Shown here: in pieces, positions 5,526 through 34,984 of the stretch | Layout: each line of letters starts with the position of its first letter | Numbering within the stretch: position 1 is the stretch's first letter | From: a virus | Virus record (IMG/VR): IMGVR_UViG_3300047552_000621 | Location: 1 to 36,607 of that record | DNA length: 36,607 bases | Reading direction: 5' to 3' (one strand) | Notes under the pieces: model-generated | Told to the model about the DNA's origin: nothing | The model's database searches: none | The model's input: only the letters and a program-made list of their open reading frames with translations | Program-made: the position numbers and the translations under genes

Positions 5526-5966
5526 ATGAAGATCAGTGAAGTGCTTCGTAATGCTCGTCGAGAGGTTGGCCTTTCTCGTCGAGAGGTTGGTGTGAGTGCG
5601 GGCCTACACCCAAGCGCCATCGAGAAGCTCGAACGCGGGGCTCGCAGTCCTACGTTCATCACATTGACCAAGCTGTGCGGTTCGCTGGGCCTGCTTACCA
5701 GTGAGGCAGTGCGTAGGACCGAGGTCGATGATGCTGCCGCTCCCCAGTGGGACGCGAATAGCACTGGTCGTGAGCCAATCTTCAAGCCTGGCCCCGTGCG
5801 CTACGAGCAGCTCGTTGGTGACATACAGATGCACTGCGGGTGGCGCTACGGCTCCGTCGAGACAATGGCGGCGCTGCGCACAAAATGTCCGGTCGATGGA
5901 GACCTGGTTAACCGGCTCCTGTCTGGTCGTGCGTACTCGTTTGAAACCCTGGTGGAGGCGCTATGA
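5526..5966 (+). CDS. XRE-family helix-turn-helix regulator
   Basis: A 146-residue protein whose N-terminus (ISEVLRNARREVGLSRREVG, then VSAGLHPSAIEKLERGARSP) is a standard XRE / lambda-repressor-type helix-turn-helix at about residues 3-55. The C-terminal half (about 75-146) is not a recognisable LexA/CI peptidase: no Ser/Lys protease motif is seen. It may be a dimerisation region. It is the first rightward gene, next to a cluster of operator-like repeats, so it is probably the Cro- or repressor-like switch protein. Its stop overlaps the next ATG. G/C-ending codons match its neighbours. Confidence 0.82.
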   Translation: MKISEVLRNARREVGLSRREVGVSAGLHPSAIEKLERGARSPTFITLTKLCGSLGLLTSEAVRRTEVDDAAAPQWDANSTGREPIFKPGPVRYEQLVGDIQMHCGWRYGSVETMAALRTKCPVDGDLVNRLLSGRAYSFETLVEAL

Positions 5967-15644: not shown

Positions 15645-16658
15645 ATGACTGAATCGAGCGCAAAGTATCACCTGTGGAACCGTGCCCTTTCCCGCATTGG
15701 CGAAGCTGCCGACATCACCTCGAATACCGACACGCAGCTCTCTGCGACGACATGCGCCATCCATCACGACGATCTTGTGCGTCTGATGCTTGAGTCATTC
15801 ACCTACCCGTGGGCGAGACGCCAAGCGACGCTTACCTGCATCGACACGGTCACCGAGACTACGACCGGGGCCACGAGCCCTGGCACCACTCAGTTCGACA
15901 TCGGCTCAGACTTCCGAGATGGGTCGACGCTCACGGTCACGAAGATCCTCCTGACTGACGACAGCGGGGTCACGTACACGACGTGGTCTTCTGGCACCAC
16001 CTACGCATCCGGTGCCACCGTAGTGAAAGGCTCGCGCTACTACGAGAGCCTACAGAACGCCAACACCAACCACGACCCATCCACTAGCCACACCTGGTGG
16101 ACCCTGGTTAAGGGCGAGATGGTTGAGGACGAGGACTATACGGTCACCTCACCGACTCTCGACGGTGTGCTTGGGCATATCACCACCGACACGGCTGTTC
16201 TCGACACGCACCAGATTGAAATTGTCGTAGCCATCAGTCGCGTAGGGTGGGAGCACGCATATGCTCTTCCGAGCGACTTCGTGGCACCAGTGGCTCTGCT
16301 CTTCGAGAACCAGCGCGTGGACCTTACCACAGCTGATGGTCGATACCCGTACGACATCTACAGTGCAATGGATGGTCAAGACAAAGAGTTCTTCACTGAC
16401 CTTGCTACTGACGACGACTTTGTTCTTGAGTACACCGGGGAAGTGCGCTCGGTATCCATGATGCCCGCAGCCTTTCGAGAGGCTCTTGTTTATAGGCTTG
16501 CTGCTGAGCTTGCAGTTGCTCTTCGCAAGGACGCTGCGATTGCCCAGGGCATGCTGAAGATGGCCAGGGACACAGAAGCCATCGCTCAGTCAAACGCCCT
16601 TCGCCACAGGCAGGAGAACCCTGAGCTTGACTCCCCAACGCTAAACGCCAGAGGCTAG
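15645..16658 (+). CDS. Tail tubular protein A-like (T7 gp11-like) with carbohydrate-binding-like insertion
   Basis: A 337-residue protein, longer than T7 gp11 (196). The N-terminus (KYHLWNRALSRIGEAADITS) and SFTYPWARRQATL at about 51-63 match the family start. 'WEHAYALPSDFVAPVALLFE' and the C-terminal helix around EALVYRLAAELAVALRKDAA match its end. Between residues about 64 and 190 there is an inserted beta region. It contains W114-SSGTTYASGATVVKGSRYY then a WW at 151-152, the pattern of a small CBM5/12 chitin-binding-like module. The protein should form the ring joining connector to nozzle. GAGG precedes the ATG. Confidence 0.78.
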   Translation: MTESSAKYHLWNRALSRIGEAADITSNTDTQLSATTCAIHHDDLVRLMLESFTYPWARRQATLTCIDTVTETTTGATSPGTTQFDIGSDFRDGSTLTVTKILLTDDSGVTYTTWSSGTTYASGATVVKGSRYYESLQNANTNHDPSTSHTWWTLVKGEMVEDEDYTVTSPTLDGVLGHITTDTAVLDTHQIEIVVAISRVGWEHAYALPSDFVAPVALLFENQRVDLTTADGRYPYDIYSAMDGQDKEFFTDLATDDDFVLEYTGEVRSVSMMPAAFREALVYRLAAELAVALRKDAAIAQGMLKMARDTEAIAQSNALRHRQENPELDSPTLNARG

Positions 16659-19600: not shown

Positions 19601-19870
19601 AAGCTCGCGTCTGCTGTCAACGTGCACTTCGTTGGCATGAACGGAGCTGATGTGGCTCAGTCGATAGAGGACTACGACGCAGGTAAGGGTCAGGCTGTAA
19701 AGAGCGCAGCAGCTGATGTCTCACACCACCCAATCGATGCGGAGTGGTTCCAGTCTCACACGCCCATCCAGGGCGAGTGGTCAGAGAACGCCAGGGTGGC
19801 AGTGGTGCAGGAAGACCCGCTCCCTGTGAGCATTGTCGGCATCACTCGCGAGATTGAATATGGCGGCTGA
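16661..19870 (+). CDS. Tail tubular protein B-like nozzle (T7 gp12-like), enlarged
   Basis: Starts with GTG at 16661, two bases after the upstream stop. 1,069 residues against 794 in T7 gp12. The N-terminus shows TNFTGGEFSPTLWGRTDFEK and LHNFVVTPSGSLANRPG (about 8-50), the nozzle signature. ATRERPARVWGSAVEEYNNF, LIVLTDSSEWVVGG and SIPRALVFSRDGGGYQAKDL are the propeller-like core. Two extra parts are visible. One is a beta domain ending in LTKDYTVTVCTG (about 243-256). The other is an aromatic module at about 343-410 (VSLWTGVGSYVTGN...RWYVALQNSTNKNP...YWRAV) like that in the preceding gene. Six copies form the tail tube tip that bears the fibres. Confidence 0.85.
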   Translation: MAPQRETQTNFTGGEFSPTLWGRTDFEKYSTGCRTLHNFVVTPSGSLANRPGAMGVYDSGADAMNGSSVCRCYRFTDSTTGTTRWILLAFTYDVGATHSHIYPFYSAGSDMPEGSAAIRIPDPLSPGNYISLETSHSAAGCQDGNCVGYAEDELSQLNFAQQGNVITICHPNHVPAELKMTTAWDTWAYGGITFDVPLFPTTTETTTGSGGTAFPVATRFYGAEQLTVTQITIATGARTELELTKDYTVTVCTGDTANGSVTTVSNISSSYKIEVVIEASWGGKPRMYDHNDLTNGVSGVSSIVQYGDESHPLRDWQWQVTRIIEYADGSTIETMPYTVSKWVAPTVSLWTGVGSYVTGNTVHLGGTYADGATYVPATVTDGRWYVALQNSTNKNPATETAYWRAVYPHDTISEKAYTETDLKKSLPVYPEIPFQLHWGEWVATTRTYRIIATRIYRGRLGRYGFIGETKDNWFIDDGQTPDFSRPPPQGVNPFKVYAADGTTLTRTENPSVVTYFEGRRFFAATRERPARVWGSAVEEYNNFDEIIPPKDSDSLSFELASTSLEAVKALVPRRELIVLTDSSEWVVGGSEQGGLLTPNSIAARKEGERGSGSLQPIMAGDSVIFAQRKGSIPRALVFSRDGGGYQAKDLSLFARHLFAGHTIVDWAYAQDPWQIIWAVRDDGLLLSCTYIAERDMFAWSTHEIKNQYEGKVRSICIVPEDTEDSVYLVYELTEGSTNRILMRLWGFDQADLRLANRVDSSYTWDGRNPYLSGATEISIEYSTSGAWWPTTVEGVAPVGGTGIGEFVTITVTGTATTQRQPFQDLIEGSSNTAPSFTTGALASPGTKFALQLNSSNEDGTFIKVRLMCVHDTGGGALVYLGKVLSNNLSASSRTYSITDFVLCFNSLRDDNANWARIYGDAYTGEYTAKYVADGVFYDSAANVSYPMTLDSGVYAGICHVGIPVVSQMESLDMVPEIGRKKLASAVNVHFVGMNGADVAQSIEDYDAGKGQAVKSAAADVSHHPIDAEWFQSHTPIQGEWSENARVAVVQEDPLPVSIVGITREIEYGG

Positions 19871-20342
19871 TGTCATCATCAGATCAGCGACCGTGGCAGA
19901 CGCAGTCGAGATGGCTCCGGTTATGCGCCAGAGCGAGGTCGATGAGATCTTGGCGTCTGGTGGCAAAGAGCCACTGCCAACCCTTCTTGAGGCGCTTAAC
20001 TCCTCGACAGAGTCGTGGGTGGCGTTTTTTGATGGGCGTATTGCGTGTATGTGGGGCGTGGCGCCTCGCAGCGGGGTGATGAGTGGCGAGGGTATTGCCT
20101 GGCTTCTCACCACGCCTGTAATCGAATCCTACAAGCAAGAGTTCTGGGCGTACTGCACAGCCTCATTGTTGGACCTGCTGTCGCGATGGGACACCCTTGT
20201 CAATGCCATCGACTGTCGCCACGGCAAAGCAATTCGCTGGGCAAAGAAGTTGGGTTTCGTGCTAGAAGAGCCTGCTCCGTTCGGTGTTGCCGGACTTCCG
20301 TTCCAGGCGTTCAAGGTTAGGAAGGAGGACGTGCATGTGTGA
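19860..20342 (+). CDS. T7 gp13-like, GNAT-fold internal virion/assembly protein
   Basis: The ATG at 19860 overlaps the end of the nozzle gene. The 160-residue product opens DVIIRSATVADAVEMAPVMR, a GNAT-like start, then has VAFFDGRIACMWGVAP. Its second half (GIAWLLTTPVIESYKQEFWA and NAIDCRHGKAIRWAKKLGFV) aligns by eye with the end of T7 gp13: 'cwfvTsd...', 'yDtLwN.v...n..airflk.lGf'. The acetyl-CoA loop is not obvious, so it may be a degenerate acetyltransferase used structurally. Its place between nozzle and gp14 homologue is the same as in T7-like phages. Confidence 0.78.
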   Translation: MAADVIIRSATVADAVEMAPVMRQSEVDEILASGGKEPLPTLLEALNSSTESWVAFFDGRIACMWGVAPRSGVMSGEGIAWLLTTPVIESYKQEFWAYCTASLLDLLSRWDTLVNAIDCRHGKAIRWAKKLGFVLEEPAPFGVAGLPFQAFKVRKEDVHV

Positions 20343-20835
20343 ACCAGTGTCGATGGGGATTGCAGCCGGGGCCATGCTTGTTGGTGGTGGTATCTCTGCT
20401 GCGGGTCAGATTCGCTCTGCCAATGCTGGTGCCAAGGTTGCCAGGAACAACGCGTTGATGCAGCAGTGGCAGGCTGATTCTGTGATGCGCCAGGGGGTCG
20501 AGCAGGCCGCAGCCATCCGAGCCGAAGGTGAGCGCACAGCTGGTGCTGCTCGTGCGGCAACCGTGGCCAACAATATCTCGACGAGCGTTGGCTCAATGGA
20601 GCACATCGGAGACATCTCTCGGATGAACGCCGAGCGCGATGCGGAGATCATCAAAGCGAACGCAGCCCTGCAGGCATGGGGCCACAAGGTCGAGGGTCAG
20701 AACGCCCTTGAGCAGGCGCGCATCAACAAGGAGGGAGCCATGTGGGGAGCGGCTGGCAGTATCCTTGGGGGTGCTGGCCAGGCTGGTCTCTCGTATGGCT
20801 CGTGGTACGGCTCGTACAAGGGCAGGGGGGTTTAG
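20335..20835 (+). CDS. T7 gp14-like internal virion (ejection) protein
   Basis: The ATG at 20335 follows AAGGAGG. The 166-residue product starts MCEPVSMGIAAGAMLVGGG, a hydrophobic N-terminus typical of gp14-type proteins in podoviruses. A long Ala/Gln/Glu-rich helix (about 30-135) includes GSMEHIGDISRMNAERDAE, which aligns with the 'GSsmdri.r...gq...ea' part of T7 gp14. The C-terminus is Gly-rich and hydrophobic (GAAGSILGGAGQAGLSYGS). In T7, gp14 is ejected first and forms the outer-membrane pore of the DNA-translocation channel. The gene order supports the same role. Confidence 0.82.
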   Translation: MCEPVSMGIAAGAMLVGGGISAAGQIRSANAGAKVARNNALMQQWQADSVMRQGVEQAAAIRAEGERTAGAARAATVANNISTSVGSMEHIGDISRMNAERDAEIIKANAALQAWGHKVEGQNALEQARINKEGAMWGAAGSILGGAGQAGLSYGSWYGSYKGRGV

Positions 20836-20837
20836 TA

Positions 20838-22601
20838 ATGAAGGTCCCCATCCTAGACCAACGAGCCGAGCTTGCCGCTATTCCTGGCGTGCAGCAGAGT
20901 ATCAGCTACGCCCCCATCGAGCAGGGCATCAGTCAGTTCGGGGCTGGGCTCACGAAGGCAGTGTCTGGGGTGGCGCAACTAGCAGCCACCGTGTCACACG
21001 AGAACGATGTCGCTGCGAGCACGGCTGCGTATTCCGACTGGCTCAAGAAGCGCAACGCAGCCATCGAAGGCACGGGCGGGTACCTGAACAAACAAGGCAG
21101 AGACGCCATCGACGGAGCGTCAAAGACCCTGGAGTTCGTGCGTACGCAAGCCGCAGGCATCGAGGGTAACCTGTACAACGACGCCCAGCGCGCCATGTTC
21201 CGCGAGCGCATCCAGGGTCACCTGATGGAGACGGAGAGTCTCGTCAATCGTCACGTCGTGTCTCAGTCAGGGGTTATCAAGAGAGCCTCCGAAGAAGCGG
21301 CCAAGGGCGAGCTTGCATCGTCAGCCACAGCTGCGGCGGTGCGCGGTGATGTTGAGGCGTCAATATCGTCAGTGCAAAAGGGGATCGAAGTGGTCGAACA
21401 AGAGACAAGCCACCTTGATTCTGAGTCCCGGCAACGAGCCCGCGTGATGTACAACACAAGCACCGTGCTCCCCGCCATCGAGGCGGCGCTCGACCAGGGA
21501 ACGCCCACTGGCCTGGCAACAGCAAAGCAGCTGCTTGCAGCCTATCGAAACAACGTCGACAGCAACGCTCTCGTGCGCTCCGGCATTGAAGCGCGCATGG
21601 AGAAGGTGGCCAGGTCTGGCGAGGTTCTCGTGCAGGCCAACAAGATCTTCAATGACAACGTCGACACCAAGCAGAAGGGCGTGTGGGATGCGGCGAAGAT
21701 GATGGAACAGGTGGCCAACGAGCCTGACCCAGTTAAGCAGGATATGATTCGCGACGCCATCACCAAGCGCATCTCGCAGGAAGAGCGCGCCTGGGACTCT
21801 TCCGACCAGATGCGCGTCGATGAGCTGTCGAGCCAGATACTCTCGAAAGAGTTCGGCACTCTACAGTCCATGCGTGGCGACAAGTCCTACGACGCAATGT
21901 CTGCTCGCGGTAGACGCCGAGCCGACGAGAAGTGGACATCGTGGTATCGAGCAGAGCACGGCACCTCCAGGGAGCGGCAGCAGCAGAAGGATGAGGATAG
22001 GATTGCCCTCAACAACTTCCGCAGCCTGGAGGCCGAAGAGCAGGTCAGCGTCGACATCGGCTCTGATAGAAGGTTCGACAACGTGTCCCCGGTTGGCAAG
22101 TCGTACCTTGGGCTCTACCAGGCGAACGCCAAGAAGCTGAGCCGAGGTACACTGGCTGAAATCAGGAGAAACGCCGAGGTCTGGGCTGACGAGGCAATGG
22201 TCGACCCAAACAAGAAGACATCGGAGAGCGAAGCTCGCAGGACGTGGATAGGAAACGCGATGGAGTATGCGGTAGCGTACACGAGCAGGCTCGGTGTCTC
22301 GTCACTTCCTCCTGATGAGGTGGCCAAGCTAAAGGCTGAGCTATCTGCACAGCGAGCGAAGGAAACGTTCGCCAACAAGGTGCGCAGGGCGACCGGAATG
22401 GACGAGAAGACCGCCCCAGCTGGCACCATGCGCGGTGGGGTGAAGTACACACCAGACACCAGTCCAGCGCAGGGTGTTGGCTTCGTCAAGATGCGAGGAC
22501 CTGACCCGAAAGACAAGGGAAAGACACTCACAAGGAACATCCAGAACACCGAAGAAAAAATTAATGCGGCAAGGGCGGCAGGGTGGGAGATTGTCAAATG
22601 A
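20838..22601 (+). CDS. T7 gp15-like internal virion (ejection) protein
   Basis: The ATG at 20838 follows a G-run Shine-Dalgarno. 587 residues, against about 747 in T7 gp15. The N-terminus (VPILDQRAELAAIPGVQQSI) and FGAGLTKAVSGVAQLAATVS are followed by helix-rich sequence with Gln, Ala, Glu and Arg throughout. DWLKKRNAAIEGTGGYLNKQ with GRDAIDG resembles the phage ejectosome C-type repeats. No enzymatic motif is seen. By position it should build the periplasmic tunnel together with the giant protein that follows, which overlaps it by four bases. Confidence 0.75.
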   Translation: MKVPILDQRAELAAIPGVQQSISYAPIEQGISQFGAGLTKAVSGVAQLAATVSHENDVAASTAAYSDWLKKRNAAIEGTGGYLNKQGRDAIDGASKTLEFVRTQAAGIEGNLYNDAQRAMFRERIQGHLMETESLVNRHVVSQSGVIKRASEEAAKGELASSATAAAVRGDVEASISSVQKGIEVVEQETSHLDSESRQRARVMYNTSTVLPAIEAALDQGTPTGLATAKQLLAAYRNNVDSNALVRSGIEARMEKVARSGEVLVQANKIFNDNVDTKQKGVWDAAKMMEQVANEPDPVKQDMIRDAITKRISQEERAWDSSDQMRVDELSSQILSKEFGTLQSMRGDKSYDAMSARGRRRADEKWTSWYRAEHGTSRERQQQKDEDRIALNNFRSLEAEEQVSVDIGSDRRFDNVSPVGKSYLGLYQANAKKLSRGTLAEIRRNAEVWADEAMVDPNKKTSESEARRTWIGNAMEYAVAYTSRLGVSSLPPDEVAKLKAELSAQRAKETFANKVRRATGMDEKTAPAGTMRGGVKYTPDTSPAQGVGFVKMRGPDPKDKGKTLTRNIQNTEEKINAARAAGWEIVK

Positions 22602-25600
22602 GCGACGGAGCAAGCTTCCTTGATGGGTCCACGGATGCAGAGCCTCAACAGCAAGCAGACACATCGTTCTTGGATGGCTCTGAGGAGGTCGAGCAAGAAT
22701 CATCGAACCCTGTTGGTGAATTCCTTGTCGAAGGGGTGAAGCAGGTTGGCTCGGATGTTCTCGACTACGTCCAGCAGGAGCAGGCCGGGAAGATCGCTCT
22801 TGTCAACAACATTCTCACGTACGCTCGCTCTGCTCGTGGTGGTGATGAGCGCAAGGCTGTTACTGAAATCTCGAGAGAGACAGGCACTCCGACTGCGGAG
22901 GTGATGAGCAAAATACCCGCTCTCGCCGAAATGGCTGACGAGAACGCCGACGCTCTGTCGTTGTGGCTCAAGCACCCTGAAGTATTCGACGCGATGGTCA
23001 ACAACCCAGACATGATTGGGGTGACCGTACAGAACGAGAACCTTGGCAAGCTCCAGAAGATGGTGCGAGCCGCTAAGGCGTACTCTGACTTGGACTCCCG
23101 CATGTATGTCGGAGAGGAGTCAGAGGAAGAGTACCAGGCTCGCATGCAGACCATGTACTCGACGGCAAAAGAAAAGGCCCACACTCCGCAGCCGGTGGCC
23201 ACAAAAGACGTTAGCGACAAGGAAGGTCTGTTCGGAGGCATCGCGAACACTGCGCGAGCCATGGCCGACAGGTTCTCGACGGCGTTTTCTGGGGGCAGCG
23301 AGAAGCTTGCCCTGGAGAAGATCAAGCTGGAGGTCGAGCTGCAGATCGCCAAAGATTCAGACGAGCCAGATGCCCCATCTAAAGCAGCCGAGACAGAGCG
23401 CAAGCTGTGGGAGGTCGAGAGAAAGATAATCGACAACGAGCGCGAGATGTTTGTGCAGAAGGACTACCAGCTCGGAGTGGCTGGGCGTGAGCTTGAGACC
23501 CTCGCCGAGTTTGCTGGCGGTATTGGTCCGTTTCTCACGATCAAGAACGCACCCAAGCTGGTAGGCGCGGCGGCTGGGTTCATTGGTGGAGTAGGTGTCT
23601 CGGTGGCAGGCAAGGAGCCACAACCAGGCCTGCCAATGAAGCTCGCTAAAGAAGGATGGAGGGTTGGCACGCCAATCGGGTACGCGCTTGAAGCTGCGTA
23701 CATGTACACCACTGAACTCACCAAGACCTATGATGCTCTTGGAGAGAAGACAGACGAAAACGGTGCACTCCTTGACCCGTACAGCAAGATCGCCATGGCT
23801 GCAGCCACTGCGGCAATCAAGACCCCGCTCATAATGGGTGCCATATCGAGCGCCGAGAAAAGCGCAGCGTCTGCTGTTCAGCTGGCGAGCGCAAGGCGTG
23901 CCGAGCTGTGGCTGAATAGAATCTCTGTCAATAAAGAATACCTGTCCCGCATGAGAGAAATCGGCAAAGCCATCGTCAAGAACTCTGTCGACGGAGCCAA
24001 GAACATGAGCTTCGCCGACATGGCTGGCGAGGCGATGGAGCAGATTGCTCCAGCCATCGCGTCAGGAAAAATCCCTGAACTCAACGCGGTTGATATTCTC
24101 ATCGACGGGGCTGAGTCATTCGAGAGCATGGCACACGGTGGGGCCCTGTTTGGTCTCGTTACCACCGGCATCCCCGGTACGTACCGAGCAACCAGGTCGG
24201 CTCGCGCTGCCATCAGAGCAGAGCGGCAGCTGCGCCTAACGACCAACCTAGCTCGTGCTGCGTCTGGTCTGGCTGAGTCGCCTGGGGCTCCGGTTATATC
24301 GCCAATGATTGCTGACGCCATCGCCAATGCGGAGAAGACGGAAGGCAGGAAGATCGAGAATCTGTACGTCGACCCGGTCGAGCTTGAGCGCACGGCTGCG
24401 GCTACTGGGCTCGATGTGAAGCAGCTCGTCGAGACGCTGATGGGACCAGACGGACAGGCCAGGATGGAGAAGGCAAAGAGCCTTCGAGTTGACGAGCCCG
24501 GCCAGAGGGCCACGCTCGAAGTCCCGGTCGCAGAGTACTTCGAGAAGTGGGGTGGCAGGGCCATCTCCGAGCGCCTTGCTGACCACACCAGCATGCGCCC
24601 AGGAGAGATGACGGCCTACGAGATGGCGACCATCTCCCCAAGGGAGTCACAGGCGATCACCGAGGAAGCAAACCGCCTCATCGCCGAAGAGAAGGACTTC
24701 ACGCCCAAAGAACCTGAAGAGATTCGAGCGGCAGACAAGATTCAGGAAGTGCTCGAAAGGGAAGGCGAGTACTCAGGAGAGAACGCCGCTCACGCGATGG
24801 CGCTCACGCGGGCGTTCGTAACGGTGCTCTCGAAGAAGACCGGCAGGCCAGCTGCCGAGCTGATGCGTGAGTCAGCTGTTCACGCGGCCATCGTTATGGC
24901 TGACGAGTCCGCGTCGAAGAGCCTGGGGGGCATGGTGCTGTCGCCAGCGTCCATCGAGATGGTCTATGCAGAGCACTCGAAGCTCAGCCTGCAGGAGAAG
25001 GCAGAGAGGCTGTACCGCGATCGCGTCACCGGAGCCCTCACTGAAGGCGGGTGGGAGATGCGGACCAGAGACCCAGAGAGGGGCCAGGTCGCGCTGGTGT
25101 CCTTCGAGGGCTCCAAGATCACCAATGACGCATATGGGCACAAGAGCGTCGACGGTGCGCTAAGGGCGGTCGTGCGCGAGCTGCGGGCTGCTGGCATTAC
25201 GAACGTGATGAAGCGCGGTGGGGACATCGCCTTCGACGTACGCGACGCCAAGGAAGCCGCAGTGCTCCGCGAGAAGATTGCCGTGGCGCTCGACCCGGAG
25301 GGACGCATCGGCGTCACGATCACCACCGGCAAGACGATCGCAGAGACCGGCAAGGCCCATCAGGAAGCCAAGGACCGTGGGGTCGAGAAGGGCGAGCTTG
25401 GAGACCGCAGGTATGGTCCCAAGAGCATGATTGGAGACATGCCCAAGCTGGCCTTCGAGAAAGGCCAGGAAGGCATCTCCAGTGAGAGCCCAGAGGGCAA
25501 GGCTATCCTCGCCAAGGTTGCCGAGCGCATGGCCCCCATCGCTTCTCGGTGGGAGTCCCAAGACGGTGCTGCTCCGTCGGAGATAACCAAGGCCCACGTC

Positions 25601-28600
25601 GAGTCTCTTGCGGGCAAGACGGCTGCAGAAATTGCCAGGATGACGTACGTCGACGAGACCGGGCTTGGCAACGCCAATCTCTTCGAGGATGCACGAGCGT
25701 TCGCTCCGAAGGCCTACGTCGCCAGCATCGACCTGCGCGCCTTCAAGAAGCACAACGACCTGTTTGGCCACGACGGTGGCAATGTGCTGATGTGGTACGC
25801 CAAGCGCGCAATGGCTCTTGCCGGTGGCGGTCGCGTCGACCTGAGTGCCTTGCATGGCGACGAGCTTGCAGCCCAGCACAACAGCCGCGAGGAGATCGAG
25901 CTGATAATGGACGCAGCGCGTCGAGAACTAGACAGCACCTGGTTCGTGAAAACACTTGACGACGGTAGCATATTGGTACAAAAGGGTGTACAGTTCTCTT
26001 ACGGAATTGGAGAGACCTATGACAAAGCAGACAGAATCGAACTCCCAGACGCAAAACGAAGACAGCTGGTTAGAAGAGGAGTTAAAGTCAGCGCCGAGCG
26101 CGCCGCAATCGTCCTCGGAAGAATTAAGGAAGTGGCTGGACGAGAACGCGGTTCCATTGTCGAAGTTGGCAGAGCACTGGGCCAAAGGAATGATTCGGCG
26201 TCAAGGTCGGATTCTCTAGGGTCAGGAAGGCCTCCGGAGATCAGGGAATCAGAGTCCTCCGCTCGCGAGAAGATTGCTGCAGCTGGAGTTGAGAGCTGGT
26301 CCCGCATCGACAACCAAGACGGCACGGTCGTATTTGTAGGGAAGACCGCAGACGGCAGGTCTTTCGAGCAATTCGCAATATCAGATACGAGAAAAGGTCC
26401 GGTCAGCGAGACCGCAGTGCGACATCCTGACCTGGACCATCGCCTGTCAGCGCAGGACGTGTACGATCACCGCAACGCTACCGCCCCTGCTCGCGAGCAT
26501 CTCGACGAGATTCGCAGCGACACCGGAGCCCCGGTCCGCAGCGATGGCACCATCAATGCTGGAGAGGTCGCCCTCAAGATGTTTCAGAGCGGCAACCCAG
26601 AGGAGTGGCTGAATAAGTTCGAAAGCAACAAACGGGTCAAGCAGATCTACTCGGCAGAGGACATCAAGTCCCTGAGAGACTCGATGATGGTCACCAGGGC
26701 CGTCATGCAGAAGGCATACGATCGCGGCATCATGCCAGAAGAGGGCCTGGAAAGCGCACTACGCAGCAATGCAGACTTCATCCAGTCTCTTGACCTGACG
26801 ACGATCTGCCCGCGCCAGGACGCGTTCGTGGCCACCGTGCACGCCATCGAGCGCAAGCACAAGCGCATCTTTGGACCGCTGGAGAGGTTCCGTATCGGAG
26901 AGATGATGGTGGAAGCAGGGGCCCAGCCTTCGTGCTGGTACTGCTATGGGCAAGCCTCGCGAGACCGCTATGACATGGTTGTCGGCCAGGCTAATGAGGC
27001 AGCGAAGAAGATCATCGCCATCCTAAAGAAGAACCCAAGATCGTCAACCGAGTCTTTCGTTGACGCTCTGGTGACAGAGAACCACAAGTGGGGCCTGCAC
27101 TCCACGTTCGCCAAGTGGATGAAGGAAAACTGGGACAAGCTGGAGGCCGCAGGAATCCCCAACGAAGTCGACCTGCGCAACTGGGCAATCAAAGAAGCGA
27201 CCCCTGCTGGTGCTGTCCTGCAGGACTATGCAGCCATTATCAACAAGCACGCTCACTCCATCGTGCACGAGAACGCCCCCAAGCAGTGGGGGTCGGTGCG
27301 TCAGCAGATTCTCAGGATGCGCCAAAGCATCGTCGATATCCATAACGCCAGGGCTGGTTTGCGGCTCAACAGCCAGACTGACTTTCGACCGTGGCACGTC
27401 ATCGAGATGCAGCAGGCTGTGGCGTCTATGAGGGCTCGTGGTCTCAAGGCTCACGTATACACCAAAGAAGATGCGTTCCTTCGAGTGATGGCGCACACCG
27501 GAATCAAGTTCAACCTGTCGGCTCTGTACGCAACTGATGCCAGCGGGAAGATCATCAGGGACGCACAGGGAAGACCCACGTTCAACGATGTCATCGGGAT
27601 GTCCGGTGAGAGCATCGAGCGGTGGATTAATGAGATCCCCAACGATGCCGGTGGAATGCTCGTGGCCCACACCGACGAGTCCTTTCTTGCTGGATTCAAG
27701 GATGACCGCATCCACATGATCATCCCCTACCACCAGGGCAGCGTGAAGACTGAGGTCACCGAGGCAGCGAACGCCAGGTCGTACCAGTCATTCCAACACG
27801 AGAAGTGGGACGAGGGTGGGTCAATAACGTACAAGGGGACGAAGTACGAGAAGGACGCGACCATCGAGATCACTGTGGACGGCAAGACGCACAAGATCGA
27901 CGTTGGCCACGATATCAACTCCTCGATCCACAAGAGCGACTTCAGCACGTACATCGCGATTATCAACGAGCTTGGGCTCACCCCCAAGTTCGCCACCCTT
28001 GAGCTTACTGACCCAGCCACTGGAGAGGTGGTGAAGATTGGCCAGCCCACCAAGGACGGCAAGTGGGAGATTCTCGTACCACCAGATCAGTACATGAAGC
28101 TCATCCGCGATGTGGCCAGGGAGCCCAACAAGCAGTCTGTTCCAGATCCGTCGAAGATCAACCACATGGAGGCAGACAAGATCCTCGCTGACTGGATCGA
28201 GAAGGGCGGGGAGGAGGCTGACTCCACCGCTGACCCCAAACTCGTGAAATACCTGCTCGGCAGAATCGACCGCAACGAGTGGCCAATGTCGACCCCCAAG
28301 ACCGACTCGGCGAAAGAGTCTGCACGACAGAAGATCGCTGCGGCGCAGGCCACCGGAAAGACAGCCAAGAGGCTCAAGGTGCTCCAGCAGCACGGGCTCG
28401 AAGACCAAAGCACTCCTCCTCCGGCACGACTTGCCCAGGTGGCGTTGTCGGTGGTCGAGGACAATATCCGCTCGTTCGAAAAAGAGGCGTGCGCCATCGT
28501 CGACAAATCTGGCGAGGTGATGACCACCAAGAAGGGCGGCAAGTCAAAGATCGTCATCGACGAGTTGATGATGTCGCAAATGCGCTCGACCGGGCAGATG

Positions 28601-31600
28601 ACGTTCACCCATAACCACCCTGGAGGAAGCATATTCAGCGTGGATGACATTATGGTGGCCATCAAGGGGAACGTGCGTGAGATGCGCGCCACGACCCCTG
28701 ACGGCAGCACCTGGGTGCTTCGTCGCCCAAAGGAAGGGTGGATGTCTCGCGGGGCGGCTATCGACACCGTACGCATGCGCAAGGATCTTCTTGGTGCCAT
28801 GCGCCATGCAATGACGCTGGCCAGAATAAAGATGGACAACTTCATCAGGGCTGCCGGCGGCGAGCCTGGAACAGCCAACGCAAAGGGATACAGCGATGAA
28901 AAGTGGCAAGAAATCTACAACGAAGAAGCAACCAATGGATTCAAGCGAGTCTCCGACGAGTACGGAGTCGACTGGGCCTTCGGAAAAGAGTCGCGAGAAG
29001 AGCGAGACGCAAGACTCAGAGCAGGAGACACTGGACCAGGACTGGCCTCCGACGTACCCGCCGCAGGAGACATGGGAGGAGAAGGAAGAAGCAGCGCCCT
29101 AAGACAGGAGACTGCTGGCTCCCCCAATCCTCGCGGGTGGATCGAGATTGTTGGCTCTGCTGCCAACAAGACCATGAAGGTGCTGCTCAACAAGGGCAAG
29201 GCCGACATGTCGACCATTATGCACGAGATGGCTCATAACTACCTGGAGATCCTGCGCGACCTGTATGTCGAAGATGCGGCCACTCCGCAGCAGCGTCTGG
29301 ACTTCGAGCGCATCCTGGTCGAGATCGGTGCTGATGGCCCTGACGGAATCCGCATCGAAAACCACGAGAAGTTCGCTCGCCTGGTCGAGTCGTACATCGG
29401 AGAAGGAAAGGCACCCAGTCTGGACCTGGTGGACTCCTTCCAGGCCTACAAGATGTGGATTGGCGACGTATACGGGGCAGCGAAAAATCTTGGCGTTGAA
29501 CTCAAAGACGAATCTCGCCAGGTGTTCGACCGGATGTTCGCTACCGCCGAGCAGATCGACAAGATGCGCAACATCACCATGACGACTCCGGTATTCAACT
29601 CAGCCATCGAGGCAGGGATGAGTGGAAACGAGTGGCGCGAGTACGTCGACACCGTCGCCCGCCAGCGCAACGACTTCAACCTGCGCATGCAGCGAGTCAT
29701 TGCAGCCAAGCAGCGTGACGTGACCACGAAGGCGTACAAAGCAGACCTGCGCAGGCACTCCGAAGCGGCGGGGAAAGAGTACGACCTGCTCCCAGAGATT
29801 CGCGCCCTGACCTACCTGCGCACTGGAGACGTTATCGCGGCTAGCGGCAGCAGGGTCGAGTCCATGGAGGGCGAGAAGGGACTCGCCAAGATGGACCTGG
29901 CGTCTGTCAGGGAAATCATGGGAGACGCCTCCGCAGCTGCCGAGCGTTCTCTCAAGGGGGCGCTCGTGCGCGGTGGAGAGAGCCCTGACATCGTTGCCTC
30001 ACGATTCGGCTTCGAGAGCGGGCGAGACCTGCTCGAAGCCCTCATCAACAGGCCAGAGCGCAAGGCCTACATCGAGGAGCGCGCCCAGCAGAAGATGCAG
30101 GACAAGAGCGCCGGGACGGTCGAGGAGTTCAACAGACTCAAGGCAGAAGCGGACTCAGCAGCTCATTCTGGGTACTCGGAGACCCAGGCCCTCTCCGAGC
30201 TTGCCTTGATGATGCGTGCTGGATCAGACGCAGCCAAAAGCGCCAGGATGCCCCAGGACGCACCCAAAGAGCGCAACGCCAGCACTGCCCTGGATACCGA
30301 GCGCAAAGCGGCTTCTAGGGCCACCCTGGAGGCAGGGAGGGGTAATCTCGAAGACGCTAAGATGGCGCAGCACCAAAGGGCTCTTGCAGAAGCAGACAGG
30401 GCGAAGCTCCTCGAAGAAGCCAAGAAAGCCACCCGCCACGCAGCACCGCTGGTGCTTGGAGCAAAGAAGGCGGCAAGGATAATGGTCGACGGTATGAAGG
30501 TTGGTGCAGCCAACACCAACGCCATGCTCATCAAGGAGCGTTCTGCAGCCACCAGTGCATCGAGGAAGATGGAGACCGGCGATGTCGACGGGGCCATCGA
30601 GGCTGGACAGAAGCGCCTGCTGTATCTGTACGCCTTCAGAGAGATGACGAAGGCCGTGGAGGACAAGGCCAAGTTCGACCGCCTGGCTAAGGGGCTGGTC
30701 AAGGAAACAGCCAGGATGCGCCTTGGGAGGGCGTCCAGTGTGTTCCTCGACGCCAGCGATCAAATCCTTGAGGCCATTGGGTACAAGAGCCCAGAGGTCA
30801 ATAAGACAATACTGGCCAGCAGGCTTGATGTATCCGGGCTGTTCTCTGCTCTTGAGGCAGAAGGGATGACTGTGTCGTTCGACTCAGCCTTGGTGGCAGA
30901 GTTGATTGCCAAGCCAAGGAAGCTCAAGGACATGACCGTCTCGCAGATGCGAGACGTTGGCAATGCCCTGGCGCAGATCAAAGCAGCTGCAGTCGAGGCG
31001 AACCTGTACCGAGTGCACGGAGAGATGATGGAGCGCGGCACCCTGGCGGCATCGATCAGGGCAGACCAGGAGCACTTGGCTCACAAGGGCAAGCTCAACC
31101 CGGCCAACTCCGATGTTCGTGGTCGAGGACTCCAGAATCCAGACGGCATCCTGCAGGCATGGGAGGCGGCAAAGGTTGGTCCAGAGGAGTTCTTCAACCG
31201 CATGGGGCTTACAGCTCGCGAGGCCTTCTGGGACCGCTACCTTGAGTCGCGCACCAAAGAGGACGACTTGGCCAGGAGTGTTGGCGAATACTTTGCTCGT
31301 GGTCTTGAAGTAATCCCAGAGAAGGTTCGCGAGACCATGTTTGACGAGCTTGGCAACCTAGATGGCGTCGAGATGCCCAAGGAGCTGATGCAGGACGGCT
31401 CTCTGCGCAACAGGGTTTGGATGATGATGGTTGCCCTCAACTTTGGCAACGCGTCAAACAGAGAGCGCCTGCTCGGTGGGTACAAGTGGAAAGAGGAGAA
31501 TGTCCGCAAGTTCCTTGAGAACAACATGCGTCCAGAGGAGATGGACTTCGTCGAGTCAATCTGGGCGATGATGGACAAGGAGTTGTACCCGCACGTCGAG

Positions 31601-33232
31601 GGAGTCTACCAGCGAGTTAACGGAGTCGTTCCGCACAAAATCGAACCAACTCCATTCATGCTGGGAAACCGCACGATGCGAGGTGGTTACTTCCCTGCTC
31701 GGTATGACAAAAACTCAAGCGACGTTGGTGCTGGTCAGGCCGTCGAGAGCCTCAAGCAGCTGTACGCACCAGGCAAGGCCTCGGTGGTGAAGACGTTCAC
31801 CAAGGAGCGCGCCGGCACGTTCTCTGATGTGATAAACCTTGAGTGGTCGGTGGTTCCTGCTCACGTCGGAAACGTCATCAAGTACGTGGCCTACGAAGAG
31901 TTTGTGCGCGATGCTTCTCGTCTGTCGAAGATGTCTGACGTGAGGCAGTCCATCAAAGAGAAGCAGGGGCTGCAGTTCGACCCGTACATCGATGACTGGA
32001 TTCGTGCGGTAGGTAGCGCCAACCCTGATGTTGCGCCAACCACGGTGGCCAATGTCGCCAAGGCTCTTACGTGGGGCAAGAGCGCATTCGTCACAAGCAC
32101 CTTGGGCCTATCAATCCCGGTGGCGCTCGGAGATATGACCAACGTATTCACCCCCATTGTGCAGGGCCAGGTGAGCCCAGCAAACATGGCGCATGTGCTC
32201 GCGCAGGTCAGGAATCCTGCGCAGTTCTACGCCATGGTGCAGGAGGCGCGCAAAGCGAGCCCAGAGCTGCGCCATCGCTCTGAGGGGGTGTTCTCGCGAG
32301 TGATGAAAGAGATCGGCGTGTTCTCGCAGAAGCCGCCGAAGAGCCAGGTTGGCAAGATCAACCAAGCAGCCAAAGAGAGTGCCTGGCTGCTCATGGAGCT
32401 GACTGACGCGTTCGGCTCGACGGTAATCTGGGAAGCCAAGCGACGCCAGGAGCTTGCAAACGGGGTCGACCCGGCAGAAGCAATCCGCATGGCAGATGAG
32501 ACCGTGCGTGCCAATCTGCCAACACATGACGCAGCTGAGCAGCCAGCGTTCCTGCGCGACAAGCGAGGTTTCGGCATGCTCGTCGCCTTCATGGGGTACT
32601 TTATGAAGGTCGGTGAGATGCAGCGCAACATCACCCGCGAAGCTGGTGAGCGATGGGATACGGCTGACACCATCGGCAAGAAGCTCACTGTGCTCAATCC
32701 TGCAGCAAAGGCCTTCGTCAAATTGCTTGGCCTGTACGCTGTCACGGGTGTCATGGGAGAGTTCCTCTCTGGGCGAGGACCGGAGCAGGATGAGCCAACC
32801 CCAGAGTGGGTGCTGCGTAAGATGATGACGGCCCCATTGTTGCAGGTTCCGATCCTCGGGGCAGTGGCTGAGAGCGCGGTCAACGCCGGGGTCGCTGCGG
32901 CATTCGACAGAAAGATTCCCCTTCCGTCGGTACGAGGCGCTCCAGTGGTGGCGGTCATCGACAGAGCCGTGCGGGCTGTCGGAAAGCTTGCGTCAGACAA
33001 CAGGGACAACGACCAGGCCTTCTGGGATGCGTGGCAACTCGTGGGCCTGCTTCCTGGCATAGCCGGGAATCCAATCTTCTCCAACCAGGCTGCGCGCATC
33101 GGAAGATACGCCACCAGCGACGAAGGGCTAGCGGAAGACCTGGACACCGGCAACCTTCCGGGCATTGGATCTGGTGTGGTGTACGGCAAGCGCAAAGGGC
33201 AGCCAGAAAACATGTTTGGGGTTGGAGAGTAA
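22598..33232 (+). CDS. Giant polyvalent virion protein (3,544 aa) with GGDEF-like, CxxCY, JAB-like and HExxH domains
   Basis: Fills the place of T7 gp16, so it is probably ejected with DNA. In order: SFLDGS twice in the first 28 residues. Hydrophobic helices at about 303-345 and 405-425. GGDEF-like domain 1 at about 804-905 with K840..ND843-844..GH847-848 and RGGDIAF at 873-879. GGDEF-like domain 2 at about 1015-1115 with D1045, FK1049-1050, ND1053-1054, GH1057-1058 and HGDEL at 1086-1090. An uncharacterised domain at about 1400-1715 with C1404, C1446-x2-C1449-Y and IIPYH to H1712. A JAB/MPN-like H2005-x-H2007..S2014..D2017. HEMAH at 2209-2213. Then long charged helices, and hydrophobic segments near 3160-3185, 3370-3395 and 3415-3440. 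Enzyme activity and packaging are inferred; no lytic transglycosylase was found. Start is ATGA-overlapped with the gp15-like gene. Confidence 0.9.
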   Translation: MSDGASFLDGSTDAEPQQQADTSFLDGSEEVEQESSNPVGEFLVEGVKQVGSDVLDYVQQEQAGKIALVNNILTYARSARGGDERKAVTEISRETGTPTAEVMSKIPALAEMADENADALSLWLKHPEVFDAMVNNPDMIGVTVQNENLGKLQKMVRAAKAYSDLDSRMYVGEESEEEYQARMQTMYSTAKEKAHTPQPVATKDVSDKEGLFGGIANTARAMADRFSTAFSGGSEKLALEKIKLEVELQIAKDSDEPDAPSKAAETERKLWEVERKIIDNEREMFVQKDYQLGVAGRELETLAEFAGGIGPFLTIKNAPKLVGAAAGFIGGVGVSVAGKEPQPGLPMKLAKEGWRVGTPIGYALEAAYMYTTELTKTYDALGEKTDENGALLDPYSKIAMAAATAAIKTPLIMGAISSAEKSAASAVQLASARRAELWLNRISVNKEYLSRMREIGKAIVKNSVDGAKNMSFADMAGEAMEQIAPAIASGKIPELNAVDILIDGAESFESMAHGGALFGLVTTGIPGTYRATRSARAAIRAERQLRLTTNLARAASGLAESPGAPVISPMIADAIANAEKTEGRKIENLYVDPVELERTAAATGLDVKQLVETLMGPDGQARMEKAKSLRVDEPGQRATLEVPVAEYFEKWGGRAISERLADHTSMRPGEMTAYEMATISPRESQAITEEANRLIAEEKDFTPKEPEEIRAADKIQEVLEREGEYSGENAAHAMALTRAFVTVLSKKTGRPAAELMRESAVHAAIVMADESASKSLGGMVLSPASIEMVYAEHSKLSLQEKAERLYRDRVTGALTEGGWEMRTRDPERGQVALVSFEGSKITNDAYGHKSVDGALRAVVRELRAAGITNVMKRGGDIAFDVRDAKEAAVLREKIAVALDPEGRIGVTITTGKTIAETGKAHQEAKDRGVEKGELGDRRYGPKSMIGDMPKLAFEKGQEGISSESPEGKAILAKVAERMAPIASRWESQDGAAPSEITKAHVESLAGKTAAEIARMTYVDETGLGNANLFEDARAFAPKAYVASIDLRAFKKHNDLFGHDGGNVLMWYAKRAMALAGGGRVDLSALHGDELAAQHNSREEIELIMDAARRELDSTWFVKTLDDGSILVQKGVQFSYGIGETYDKADRIELPDAKRRQLVRRGVKVSAERAAIVLGRIKEVAGRERGSIVEVGRALGQRNDSASRSDSLGSGRPPEIRESESSAREKIAAAGVESWSRIDNQDGTVVFVGKTADGRSFEQFAISDTRKGPVSETAVRHPDLDHRLSAQDVYDHRNATAPAREHLDEIRSDTGAPVRSDGTINAGEVALKMFQSGNPEEWLNKFESNKRVKQIYSAEDIKSLRDSMMVTRAVMQKAYDRGIMPEEGLESALRSNADFIQSLDLTTICPRQDAFVATVHAIERKHKRIFGPLERFRIGEMMVEAGAQPSCWYCYGQASRDRYDMVVGQANEAAKKIIAILKKNPRSSTESFVDALVTENHKWGLHSTFAKWMKENWDKLEAAGIPNEVDLRNWAIKEATPAGAVLQDYAAIINKHAHSIVHENAPKQWGSVRQQILRMRQSIVDIHNARAGLRLNSQTDFRPWHVIEMQQAVASMRARGLKAHVYTKEDAFLRVMAHTGIKFNLSALYATDASGKIIRDAQGRPTFNDVIGMSGESIERWINEIPNDAGGMLVAHTDESFLAGFKDDRIHMIIPYHQGSVKTEVTEAANARSYQSFQHEKWDEGGSITYKGTKYEKDATIEITVDGKTHKIDVGHDINSSIHKSDFSTYIAIINELGLTPKFATLELTDPATGEVVKIGQPTKDGKWEILVPPDQYMKLIRDVAREPNKQSVPDPSKINHMEADKILADWIEKGGEEADSTADPKLVKYLLGRIDRNEWPMSTPKTDSAKESARQKIAAAQATGKTAKRLKVLQQHGLEDQSTPPPARLAQVALSVVEDNIRSFEKEACAIVDKSGEVMTTKKGGKSKIVIDELMMSQMRSTGQMTFTHNHPGGSIFSVDDIMVAIKGNVREMRATTPDGSTWVLRRPKEGWMSRGAAIDTVRMRKDLLGAMRHAMTLARIKMDNFIRAAGGEPGTANAKGYSDEKWQEIYNEEATNGFKRVSDEYGVDWAFGKESREERDARLRAGDTGPGLASDVPAAGDMGGEGRSSALRQETAGSPNPRGWIEIVGSAANKTMKVLLNKGKADMSTIMHEMAHNYLEILRDLYVEDAATPQQRLDFERILVEIGADGPDGIRIENHEKFARLVESYIGEGKAPSLDLVDSFQAYKMWIGDVYGAAKNLGVELKDESRQVFDRMFATAEQIDKMRNITMTTPVFNSAIEAGMSGNEWREYVDTVARQRNDFNLRMQRVIAAKQRDVTTKAYKADLRRHSEAAGKEYDLLPEIRALTYLRTGDVIAASGSRVESMEGEKGLAKMDLASVREIMGDASAAAERSLKGALVRGGESPDIVASRFGFESGRDLLEALINRPERKAYIEERAQQKMQDKSAGTVEEFNRLKAEADSAAHSGYSETQALSELALMMRAGSDAAKSARMPQDAPKERNASTALDTERKAASRATLEAGRGNLEDAKMAQHQRALAEADRAKLLEEAKKATRHAAPLVLGAKKAARIMVDGMKVGAANTNAMLIKERSAATSASRKMETGDVDGAIEAGQKRLLYLYAFREMTKAVEDKAKFDRLAKGLVKETARMRLGRASSVFLDASDQILEAIGYKSPEVNKTILASRLDVSGLFSALEAEGMTVSFDSALVAELIAKPRKLKDMTVSQMRDVGNALAQIKAAAVEANLYRVHGEMMERGTLAASIRADQEHLAHKGKLNPANSDVRGRGLQNPDGILQAWEAAKVGPEEFFNRMGLTAREAFWDRYLESRTKEDDLARSVGEYFARGLEVIPEKVRETMFDELGNLDGVEMPKELMQDGSLRNRVWMMMVALNFGNASNRERLLGGYKWKEENVRKFLENNMRPEEMDFVESIWAMMDKELYPHVEGVYQRVNGVVPHKIEPTPFMLGNRTMRGGYFPARYDKNSSDVGAGQAVESLKQLYAPGKASVVKTFTKERAGTFSDVINLEWSVVPAHVGNVIKYVAYEEFVRDASRLSKMSDVRQSIKEKQGLQFDPYIDDWIRAVGSANPDVAPTTVANVAKALTWGKSAFVTSTLGLSIPVALGDMTNVFTPIVQGQVSPANMAHVLAQVRNPAQFYAMVQEARKASPELRHRSEGVFSRVMKEIGVFSQKPPKSQVGKINQAAKESAWLLMELTDAFGSTVIWEAKRRQELANGVDPAEAIRMADETVRANLPTHDAAEQPAFLRDKRGFGMLVAFMGYFMKVGEMQRNITREAGERWDTADTIGKKLTVLNPAAKAFVKLLGLYAVTGVMGEFLSGRGPEQDEPTPEWVLRKMMTAPLLQVPILGAVAESAVNAGVAAAFDRKIPLPSVRGAPVVAVIDRAVRAVGKLASDNRDNDQAFWDAWQLVGLLPGIAGNPIFSNQAARIGRYATSDEGLAEDLDTGNLPGIGSGVVYGKRKGQPENMFGVGE
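26019..26219 (+). CDS. Nested +1-frame small gene within the giant gene (66 aa), putative
   Basis: The ATG at 26019 has GGAG (26009-26012) six bases upstream. The frame encodes 66 hydrophilic residues: MTKQTESNSQTQNEDSWLEE, then a Ser/Pro/Gln linker, SSEELRKWLDENAVPLSKL and AEHWAKGMIRRQGRIL. The C-terminal half looks like a real amphipathic helix pair. In this segment the giant gene's own frame uses AGA, CGA and GGA codons heavily, while the nested frame keeps natural composition, as if selection acts on the nested product. It falls between the second GGDEF-like domain and the CxxCY domain. Alternatives are chance, or a remnant of an inserted gene. Confidence 0.45.
   Translation: MTKQTESNSQTQNEDSWLEEELKSAPSAPQSSSEELRKWLDENAVPLSKLAEHWAKGMIRRQGRIL
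28896..29102 (+). CDS. Second nested +1-frame small gene within the giant gene (68 aa), putative
   Basis: The ATG at 28896 has AAGGGA (28883-28888) seven bases upstream. The frame encodes 68 residues that start basic (MKSGKKSTTKKQ) and become acidic and proline-rich (ETLDQDWPPTYPPQETWEEK). Codons are the G/C-ending kind usual here (ACG, AAG, GAG, TCG, CCG). The giant frame over the same bases is unusually rich in GGA, AGA and CGA. It lies between the JAB-like and HExxH domains, in the same +1 frame as the nested frame at 26019. Function unknown; it could be coincidence of a low-complexity linker. Confidence 0.4.
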   Translation: MKSGKKSTTKKQPMDSSESPTSTESTGPSEKSREKSETQDSEQETLDQDWPPTYPPQETWEEKEEAAP

Positions 33233-33304
33233 AAACGTGGAAACCATCAAAAACGTCAAAAAGCAGTGGACCACCACAGCAGTGCTCTGGTAAGGTGCAA
33301 GATC

Positions 33305-34984
33305 GTGGGCGGGACTTCCAAAAAAAGCTACGACCTACGGGGCTCCCATGAAGAGTCGCGTGTGTCTGTCGACGACATCTATCGTCGGCAGGGACGCATG
33401 TCGGCAGACAGAGTAGACCAGATACCCACCCACAGCGGACTCGAAGACTCGTCGTTGTTCTCGGTATCGTACGCGTCGCGCATCTTCACCGTGGTTGTGT
33501 CTGGCGACACTTGGGTCTGGGTGGCTGGGTCAAAGTTCAAGGTGCGAGCAGGAACGTATGCCACCACCGCGCACGCCAACACGACCGGTCAGTACTTCTG
33601 TTACTACGACGACGCTGGTGACCTGACGGTATCATCCACCGCATGGACACTAAGCGGGACAGCCCCGGTGGCGATGGCGTACTTCAACGCCACGACTGGC
33701 GGCAGCGTCCTCTTTGACGAGCGTCATCCAGGCCCCACGGGGATGTCGGATGCCACCCACATCAACAATCACTTCACTCGCGGCACCCAGTTGCAGAGTG
33801 GCGGGGTGGTGTCTGGGTACACGCTGCCAAGCTCAAGCACTGCCGAGATCTCCTACGCGGTAAGCTCTGCAGTCCTTGCAGACGAGGATCTGATCACCAC
33901 TGTCGACGCGGTGGCTGATGCTGGCCCATACCGCATCGCATACCGTAGCGGGTCAGATGCAAGCGGCGAGTGGACGTTCGACGACACGAGCACCACGGGA
34001 ATCCTCGGAGACGGAACAGACCCGTACTACAACCAGCTCTCTGGTGGTAACTGGTCCCGCACGGCCATCACGAGCAACAACCGCTGGTGGTGCCACTGGC
34101 TAGTGGCCTGGCCAACGTATGACGGCACCAACGGAATCATCTCTGTTATGGGCTCGACCCTGCACACTTCCCTTGCTGCGGCGCAAGCAGAGGACGCTAC
34201 CGCGATCCAGTGGGGTGCGTTCTCGCCGCAGGAGTTCGTGGTCTTTGCGAAGCTCATCTACCAGCGATTGACGGCCACCACTCCAAGCAATGCAAAGCTG
34301 GTGCAGGTTGATTATGTGCGCAGCACGCGCACGAGCACTGTGCTTCCGGCTTCTGCCGCGACCGGAATCGCTACCGACGCGACCAACTTCAACGCGATAC
34401 TGTCCAGCTCTGACAACACGGTACAGAAGGCCCTCGACACAATCGATGACTCGCAAGGGTATGTCACTTATGGATTCGACAACATACTTCACTCTCGCCT
34501 GCCCTCGTATCAGACTGCGGCGGTAGCCAATGTCGCTGACCGTGCGTATTTTCTGTACGTTGGCCGCACCGCTCGCGCCATAACTCCTCTGTACGTCGAG
34601 TTCTTTGTTGGCACTGGCGGTACAGGCGCACAGACGGCAGAGGTTGGTCTGTTCTCATCTCCGGCAGCCCCCAACAAGGCGGCCCAGACGCTCACCAAGA
34701 TTGAAGCAACAGGAACCGTCGATGACTTGACGACCACAGGAGTCAAGCGGAATACCAACCCGTTCTCCACCGTAGTGCCTGTCGGAACCTACCTGTGGGC
34801 AGGCGTACGTTTCAATATGGCCACTACGCAACCAGCCATCTGGAACGTTGGTAACGATATGGGCCAAGGTGCCATACTTGGCTACCCGGCTGCGGGTGCG
34901 CTTACCGCGTCTGCCTCGTTTGCTGCCGTGAAGATAGCGGCATCCATGAACACAGGGCCTGACCTTAGAGTAACCATAGTTTGA
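33305..34984 (+). CDS. Tail fibre / tail appendage protein
   Basis: The start is uncertain. I favour the GTG at 33305 (AAGGTG seven bases upstream), giving 559 residues; a GTG at 33266 and an ATG at 33398 are in frame. The N-terminal 30-110 residues (DDIYRRQGRMSADRVDQIPT, then beta-rich Thr/Ser/Gly sequence) would attach to the tail. THINNHFTRGTQLQSGG near the middle and NTVQKALDTIDDSQGY are repeat-type fibre elements. The C-terminal 170 residues are a Thr/Ala-rich beta domain (VEFFVGTGGTGAQTAEVGLF), probably the receptor-binding part. It follows the giant gene as fibres follow gp16 in T7-like phages. No endosialidase or chaperone domain is seen. Confidence 0.72.
   Translation: MGGTSKKSYDLRGSHEESRVSVDDIYRRQGRMSADRVDQIPTHSGLEDSSLFSVSYASRIFTVVVSGDTWVWVAGSKFKVRAGTYATTAHANTTGQYFCYYDDAGDLTVSSTAWTLSGTAPVAMAYFNATTGGSVLFDERHPGPTGMSDATHINNHFTRGTQLQSGGVVSGYTLPSSSTAEISYAVSSAVLADEDLITTVDAVADAGPYRIAYRSGSDASGEWTFDDTSTTGILGDGTDPYYNQLSGGNWSRTAITSNNRWWCHWLVAWPTYDGTNGIISVMGSTLHTSLAAAQAEDATAIQWGAFSPQEFVVFAKLIYQRLTATTPSNAKLVQVDYVRSTRTSTVLPASAATGIATDATNFNAILSSSDNTVQKALDTIDDSQGYVTYGFDNILHSRLPSYQTAAVANVADRAYFLYVGRTARAITPLYVEFFVGTGGTGAQTAEVGLFSSPAAPNKAAQTLTKIEATGTVDDLTTTGVKRNTNPFSTVVPVGTYLWAGVRFNMATTQPAIWNVGNDMGQGAILGYPAAGALTASASFAAVKIAASMNTGPDLRVTIV

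Follow-up and report, generated by a model that had tools for sequence, protein, structure and literature searches.

Polyvalent proteins are very large multidomain proteins encoded by late genes and predicted to be injected with the DNA (Iyer et al. 2017, PMC5512222). Their repertoire comprises zincin peptidase, ART, PBECR, GNAT, ParB, RadC/JAB, GGDEF and LPD domains, among which GGDEF is noted as not especially common, and the peptidases of such polyproteins have been proposed to process the polyprotein (PMC5512222). The definition of the class dates from 2017, and a direct test of delivery was not found in the literature searched. The closest described system is Bbp10 of Bordetella phage BPP-1 with its homologues (PHROG 9880). 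The other point of reference is T7 gp16 (1,318 aa), which carries an endolysin domain at its N-terminus and whose gene is the last of the internal virion genes, ahead of the fibre.

Here, we analysed a virus record of the IMG/VR type (36,607 bases, the window in the following) which encodes a very large protein, referred to as the giant. It resembles the polyvalent proteins of Iyer et al. (2017, PMC5512222) in being a large multidomain late-gene protein with zincin, JAB, GGDEF and LPD22-like parts. Several unrelated enzyme-type domains (two GGDEF domains, JAMM, the zincin motif and a domain named CxxCY) are combined in one chain, class domains are shared via LPD22, reached through intermediate sequences, as well as via a core fold matching LPD-labelled proteins, and the gene lies in a late-gene context among virion genes. 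The class is known and widespread; the giant is a new member of it and brings a new set of cargo domains. We consider it probable that it is a BPP-1/Bbp10-type polyvalent protein, packaged in the virion and entering the host with the genome, in which a frame carries a slot and a zincin releases the cargo.

Gene order and the place of T7 gp16

The giant gene was described as a 3,544-residue ORF at 22598-33232 and is intact: one open frame with no internal stops, 3,544 aa and 388 kDa. A chance origin of so long a frame is ruled out and the ORF is real. Its start is the ATG at 22598, which overlaps the upstream stop as ATGA. Upstream lie the genes for the terminase, portal (head-tail adaptor), protease, major head protein, gp11/gp12-like tail proteins, and gp13-like and gp14-like proteins, followed by a gene of 587-619 aa, the giant and a probable fibre gene:

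19833..20342, plus strand: T7 gp13-like internal virion protein (phrog_308, E=8e-32; hhalign to T7 gp13, Prob 95)
20284..20835, plus strand: T7 gp14-like internal virion protein (phrog_418, E=1e-26; Pfam T7_gp14, E=8e-4, below its cut-off)
20742..22601, plus strand: gene preceding the giant (likely start 20838, 587 aa), BPP-1-type "structural lysozyme" family without the transglycosylase insert
22598..33232, plus strand: giant polyvalent protein gene (ORF reading, ATGA overlap with the upstream gene)
33266..34984, plus strand: probable tail fibre or spike (by position, as in relatives)

The gp11-like (337 aa, 15645-16658) and gp12-like (1,069 aa, 16661-19870) tail proteins appear enlarged, the PHROG tail match of the former being restricted to its C-terminal part and about 420 N-terminal residues of the latter lying outside its best-scoring PHROG tail match. 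The window also encodes a repressor-like transcriptional regulator and a YqaJ-type recombinase (5526-5966 and 3899-4834, minus strand), with which the phage is possibly temperate.

A preliminary description of this DNA had placed homologues of T7 gp13, gp14 and gp15 before the giant and a fibre after it. The first two assignments stand, while no similarity to T7 gp15 was detected for the gene at 20742/20838-22601 (hhalign Prob 0.1), and the fibre is assigned by position, with no PHROG or Pfam match to its gene. The gene preceding the giant is homologous to the "structural lysozyme" family of BPP-1-type phages, minus the lytic domain. In many relatives, the lytic transglycosylase, which aligns with the N-terminus of T7 gp16 (Prob 67), sits in the gene preceding the giant, and the insert is skipped in the corresponding gene of the window, DC33, PS25B, L018 and L019. 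Since the relatives have the gp16-like transglycosylase in the preceding gene, lysis is not a task of the giant in this lineage. Within the window, no transglycosylase or endolysin domain was found in the giant, no lysozyme was found in the gene at the gp15 place or elsewhere in searches with Pfam, the relatives' lysozyme genes and the T7 gp16 N-terminus, and no other peptidoglycan hydrolase or virion muralytic enzyme was found in this record, which may be incomplete. The giant had also been said to replace gp16, carrying its domains instead of a gp16-like transglycosylase. The second statement is correct for the window; in the lineage, the lytic domain belongs to the neighbouring gene. The first holds for position (after the gp13/14-like genes and before the by-position fibre), as the giant is, like gp16, the last internal virion gene, and is not supported for homology: unlike gp16, the giant has no endolysin domain that we could find, and a core homologous to T7 gp16 was rejected (hhalign Prob 1.1; no Foldseek PDB match below E 0.9).

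Relatives and the constant frame

In tblastn, the C-terminal 1,644 aa of the giant matched 42 phage records, none of which spans 80% of the query in one place, from phages of Pseudomonas, Xanthomonas, Vibrio, Bordetella, Caulobacter, Nostoc, Microcystis and others; no phage record was matched by the N-terminal 1,900 aa. Records sharing the core include BPP-1 (Bbp10), Carin1, AF and CP2, and the core has full-length homology to phrog_9880, the Bbp10 family (E=3e-140). Single-sequence IMG/VR scans with the whole protein, CxxCY alone or JAB alone gave 0 matches, so that alignments were required as queries; a search with an alignment of cores yielded at least 520 related IMG/VR stretches. In the records whose flanks were read, the gene order is kept, with a lysozyme-type gene, the giant and then mostly a tail, spike or fibre gene. 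Thus, a giant at the gp16 place is no oddity of one phage, since giants occupy the same place in relatives. One of these, Limnohabitans phage DC33 (PQ492659.1, our L008), is filed under Inoviridae, yet its genome carries podovirus-type virion genes. Bbp10 shares with the giant the core, the LPD22-like start and the gene neighbourhood, and differs in its length (2,052 aa), in a slot of 254 aa in its PBECR1 region and in an upstream gene that retains the transglycosylase domain.

The anatomy was surveyed by iterated profile searches in 97 giants, 84 of them with a complete 5' end. Outside the slot, the giant of the window comprises:

22775..23092, plus strand: LPD22-like N-terminal domain (residues 60-165; iterated search, 69 of 97 giants)
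23549..23845, plus strand: two hydrophobic Gly/Ala-rich stretches (residues 318-339 and 398-416; hydropathy)
24311..24658, plus strand: conserved N-terminal module (residues 572-687), left border of the slot (found in 77 of 97 giants, with a profile region around residues 540-720)
29090..33229, plus strand: conserved C-terminal core (residues 2165-3544, ~1,380 residues), mostly helical (homologue alignment, predicted structure)
29126..29566, plus strand: zincin-like metallopeptidase motif region (residues 2177-2323) at the slot/core border, with HExxH at 29222-29236 (residues 2209-2213) and Glu2257
32711..32902, plus strand: C-terminal hydrophobic stretches (within residues 3372-3435; hydropathy)

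The zincin region is present in all 97 giants and the core segments in 91-97 of them. A direct Pfam match of the N-terminal domain to LPD22 is absent; the domain is linked to the Pfam-defined LPD22 of BPP-1 and others via an intermediate sequence (L017). The C-terminal hydrophobic helices noted before are recovered by hydropathy as stretches at 3372-3390 and 3417-3435. An AlphaFold model of the core (pLDDT 78, 40 sequences in the alignment) matched no solved fold in the PDB with Foldseek (none below E 0.9), and against viral models it gave 60 matches at E <= 0.001, including proteins named large polyvalent protein associated, ART-PolyVal and crystallin-motif. Sequence and predicted fold thus agree with the earlier placement of a polyvalent protein at the ejection-protein locus.

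The zinc-site residues are invariant, with H2209, E2210 and H2213 present in 95 of the 95 sequences that have letters there and E2257 in 97 of 97. In the core model, helix 40-60, situated behind two paired strands, bears HExxH, and helix 89-105 bears E2257 (model numbering). As there is no solved fold and the zincin profile had 0 hits in the PDB, the assignment rests on the invariant residues and the predicted strand/helix layout. The motif had been counted among the effector domains; its presence was borne out, whereas its membership in that assortment was not, given that it opens the constant core, and from the alignments we read it as the zincin of this core and not of the varying effectors. 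Its position at the frame/slot border would fit the proposed processing by such peptidases (PMC5512222); no cleavage site was identified in the giant.

The variable cargo slot

Between the borders of the frame lies a region that varies among relatives, in the window with the following content:

24659..29125, plus strand: variable cargo slot (residues 688-2176, 1,489 aa; frame/slot comparison of relatives)
24968..25438, plus strand: GGDEF-like domain 1 (residues 791-947), degenerate, with the metal Asp replaced by Ser835 and the motif GGDIAF
25709..26149, plus strand: GGDEF-like domain 2 (residues 1038-1184), with D1045, N1053 and G1087-D1088-E1089 kept and the first Gly replaced by His1086
26747..28009, plus strand: CxxCY domain (residues 1384-1804), with C1404, C1446 and C1449; predicted alpha/beta
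28445..28777, plus strand: JAMM/JAB-like domain (residues about 1950-2060), with E1954, H2005, H2007, S2014 and D2017

Slot length ranges from 99 to 2,407 aa with a median of 700 (76 giants with both borders placed). When 54 representatives sharing less than 60% core identity were compared in all 1,431 pairs, slot homology was found in 27% and a core match in 100%. Pfam assigned to these 54 slots ART-PolyVal (14), PBECR5 (5), GGDEF, GNAT and DUF7178 (3 each) and, more rarely, LPD3 and LPD23 (2 each), ddrB-ParB, RadC, PBECR1 and PBECR3 (1 each). These contents are those of the published polyvalent repertoire (PMC5512222). Weak Pfam matches to TniQ, Ribosomal_L22, TetR_C_11 and pAdhesive_8 were below cut-off and disregarded. 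The cargo domains of the window are rare among the 97 giants (GGDEF1 in 5, GGDEF2 in 6, CxxCY in 4 and JAB in the window itself), and the combination of two GGDEF copies with CxxCY and JAB was absent from all relatives examined. The set seems new, as had been proposed, and it distinguishes the giant from the published polyvalent proteins (PMC5512222), as does CxxCY, which is without a Pfam entry.

The slot also bears on an unlikely explanation, in which the giant is a functional gp16 equivalent, mainly an inner-membrane ejectosome conduit, and the slot a tolerated insertion of secondary importance. The place of the gene is that of gp16, hydrophobic stretches lie near both ends of the protein, and the slot can shrink to 99 aa, so that the frame alone is viable; however, no sequence or fold similarity to gp16 was detected, the lytic domain of gp16 is in the neighbouring gene of relatives and recognised enzyme domains recur in the slots. 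As regards the frame, this explanation is compatible with the injected polyvalent protein that we favour.

Cargo domains of the window

The two GGDEF-like domains noted before were confirmed by Pfam (PF00990, E=6.7e-9 on a slice) and by a four-sequence profile that matched solved diguanylate cyclases (best E=1.2e-8), both copies being matched separately. Compared with diguanylate cyclases, domain 2 keeps D1045, N1053 and GDE and reads HGDEL instead of GGDEF, whereas domain 1 is degenerate. The pair also occurs in the relatives L017, L018 and L019, and a canonical motif (RGGDEF) is found in the giants L036 (3-392) and L040 (2-600); in L036, GGDEF lies almost directly N-terminal of the zincin.

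For the JAB-like motif, the full JAMM ligand set (E1954...H2005-x-H2007...S2014..D2017) is present and invariant in 5 homologues, which upholds the earlier reading. The domain shares this E..HxH..S..D set with RadC/JAMM domains and differs from them in having no Pfam RadC or JAB match; its nearest relatives were found among other phage proteins, including one from a Dorea phage whose gene comes two genes after the terminase. Matches of the JAB profile in the PDB were rejected as repeat or chance similarities (WD40 beta-propellers, dehydrogenases).

The CxxCY domain proved to be a reproducible family, with C1404, C1446 and C1449 invariant in 9 sequences, and is present in further giants (L071, L106 and L108) as well as in other large proteins (L101-L104, L107). 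No relative of the domain was identified in Pfam or the PDB, and a scan across bacterial and archaeal genomes gave no confirmed relative, with confirmation reaching only relatives close to the window copy; judged by these searches, it is an undescribed domain family. Its partners in other large phage proteins are GNAT (L103), a methyltransferase-like domain (L102) and ART with LPD22 and LPD23 (L107), and CxxCY would appear to be an undescribed polyvalent-associated domain. In its model, of moderate confidence (pLDDT 68), strands and helices alternate, and the best Foldseek hits, non-significant with none below E 0.016, are mostly TIM barrels and include one radical SAM enzyme; the domain is possibly TIM-barrel-like. 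The radical SAM motif CxxxCxxC is absent, the Cys spacing being C-x41-CxxC.

That all domains of the giant are degenerate and structural, with none enzymatically active, would agree with the lack of the metal Asp and of the motif in GGDEF1 and with HGDEL in GGDEF2. We regard it as improbable, as the zincin residues are invariant in 95-97 sequences, the JAMM ligands are intact and relatives have a canonical GGDEF motif.

Proposed delivery and implications

For the polyvalent protein that we prefer, we infer packaging and ejection from the context, and we likewise infer self-cleavage and all catalytic activities. The giant would be made late, packaged in the virion and enter the host with the genome, the constant frame packaging and translocating the variable slot. 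This frame would consist of the N-terminal LPD22 and conserved module, and of the C-terminal zincin with ~1,200 mostly helical residues and terminal hydrophobic stretches. Adjoining the slot, the zincin probably cleaves the chain, either within the capsid or once inside the host, whereby the cargo would be released to act at an early stage on signalling or macromolecules of the host. GGDEF2 may make or bind a cyclic (di)nucleotide with GGDEF1 as its degenerate partner, JAB may be a metal-dependent hydrolase, and CxxCY a metal- or cluster-binding enzyme. Virion proteomics for the giant or a homologue was not found in the literature; in a proteomic study of BPP-1, only the two most abundant bands were analysed, which were the main capsid bands.

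That the giant is a lysis-related protein (lysin) is hardly credible: several records and one paper on relatives say so (OANV1 gp16, 2,986 residues, is called lysis-related, and others are annotated "lysin", "lysis protein" or lysins with a beta/gamma-crystallin motif), but no peptidoglycan hydrolase domain was found in it with Pfam, PHROGs or NCBIfam, and relatives have separate endolysins. The "lysin/crystallin" naming of the giants is corrected by the comparison.

Beyond the injected polyvalent protein, a wider reading is possible, if on balance doubtful: that the ejection-locus giant of BPP-1-type podoviruses is an exchangeable effector cassette, whose frame and built-in protease deliver and release any slot content, in parallel to polymorphic toxins, and that the present slot contains a novel family of TIM-barrel enzymes, possibly radical-SAM-like, whose C-x41-CxxC site is non-canonical.

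The survey shows what related phages carry in the equivalent slot and flags CxxCY as an undescribed domain family. Moreover, the comparison yields sharp, testable borders, with a frame, a slot and a protease at the border, which could be probed in phages already in culture, among them Pseudomonas phage AF, P. fluorescens phage PfDIW6 and Caulobacter phage Jess A.
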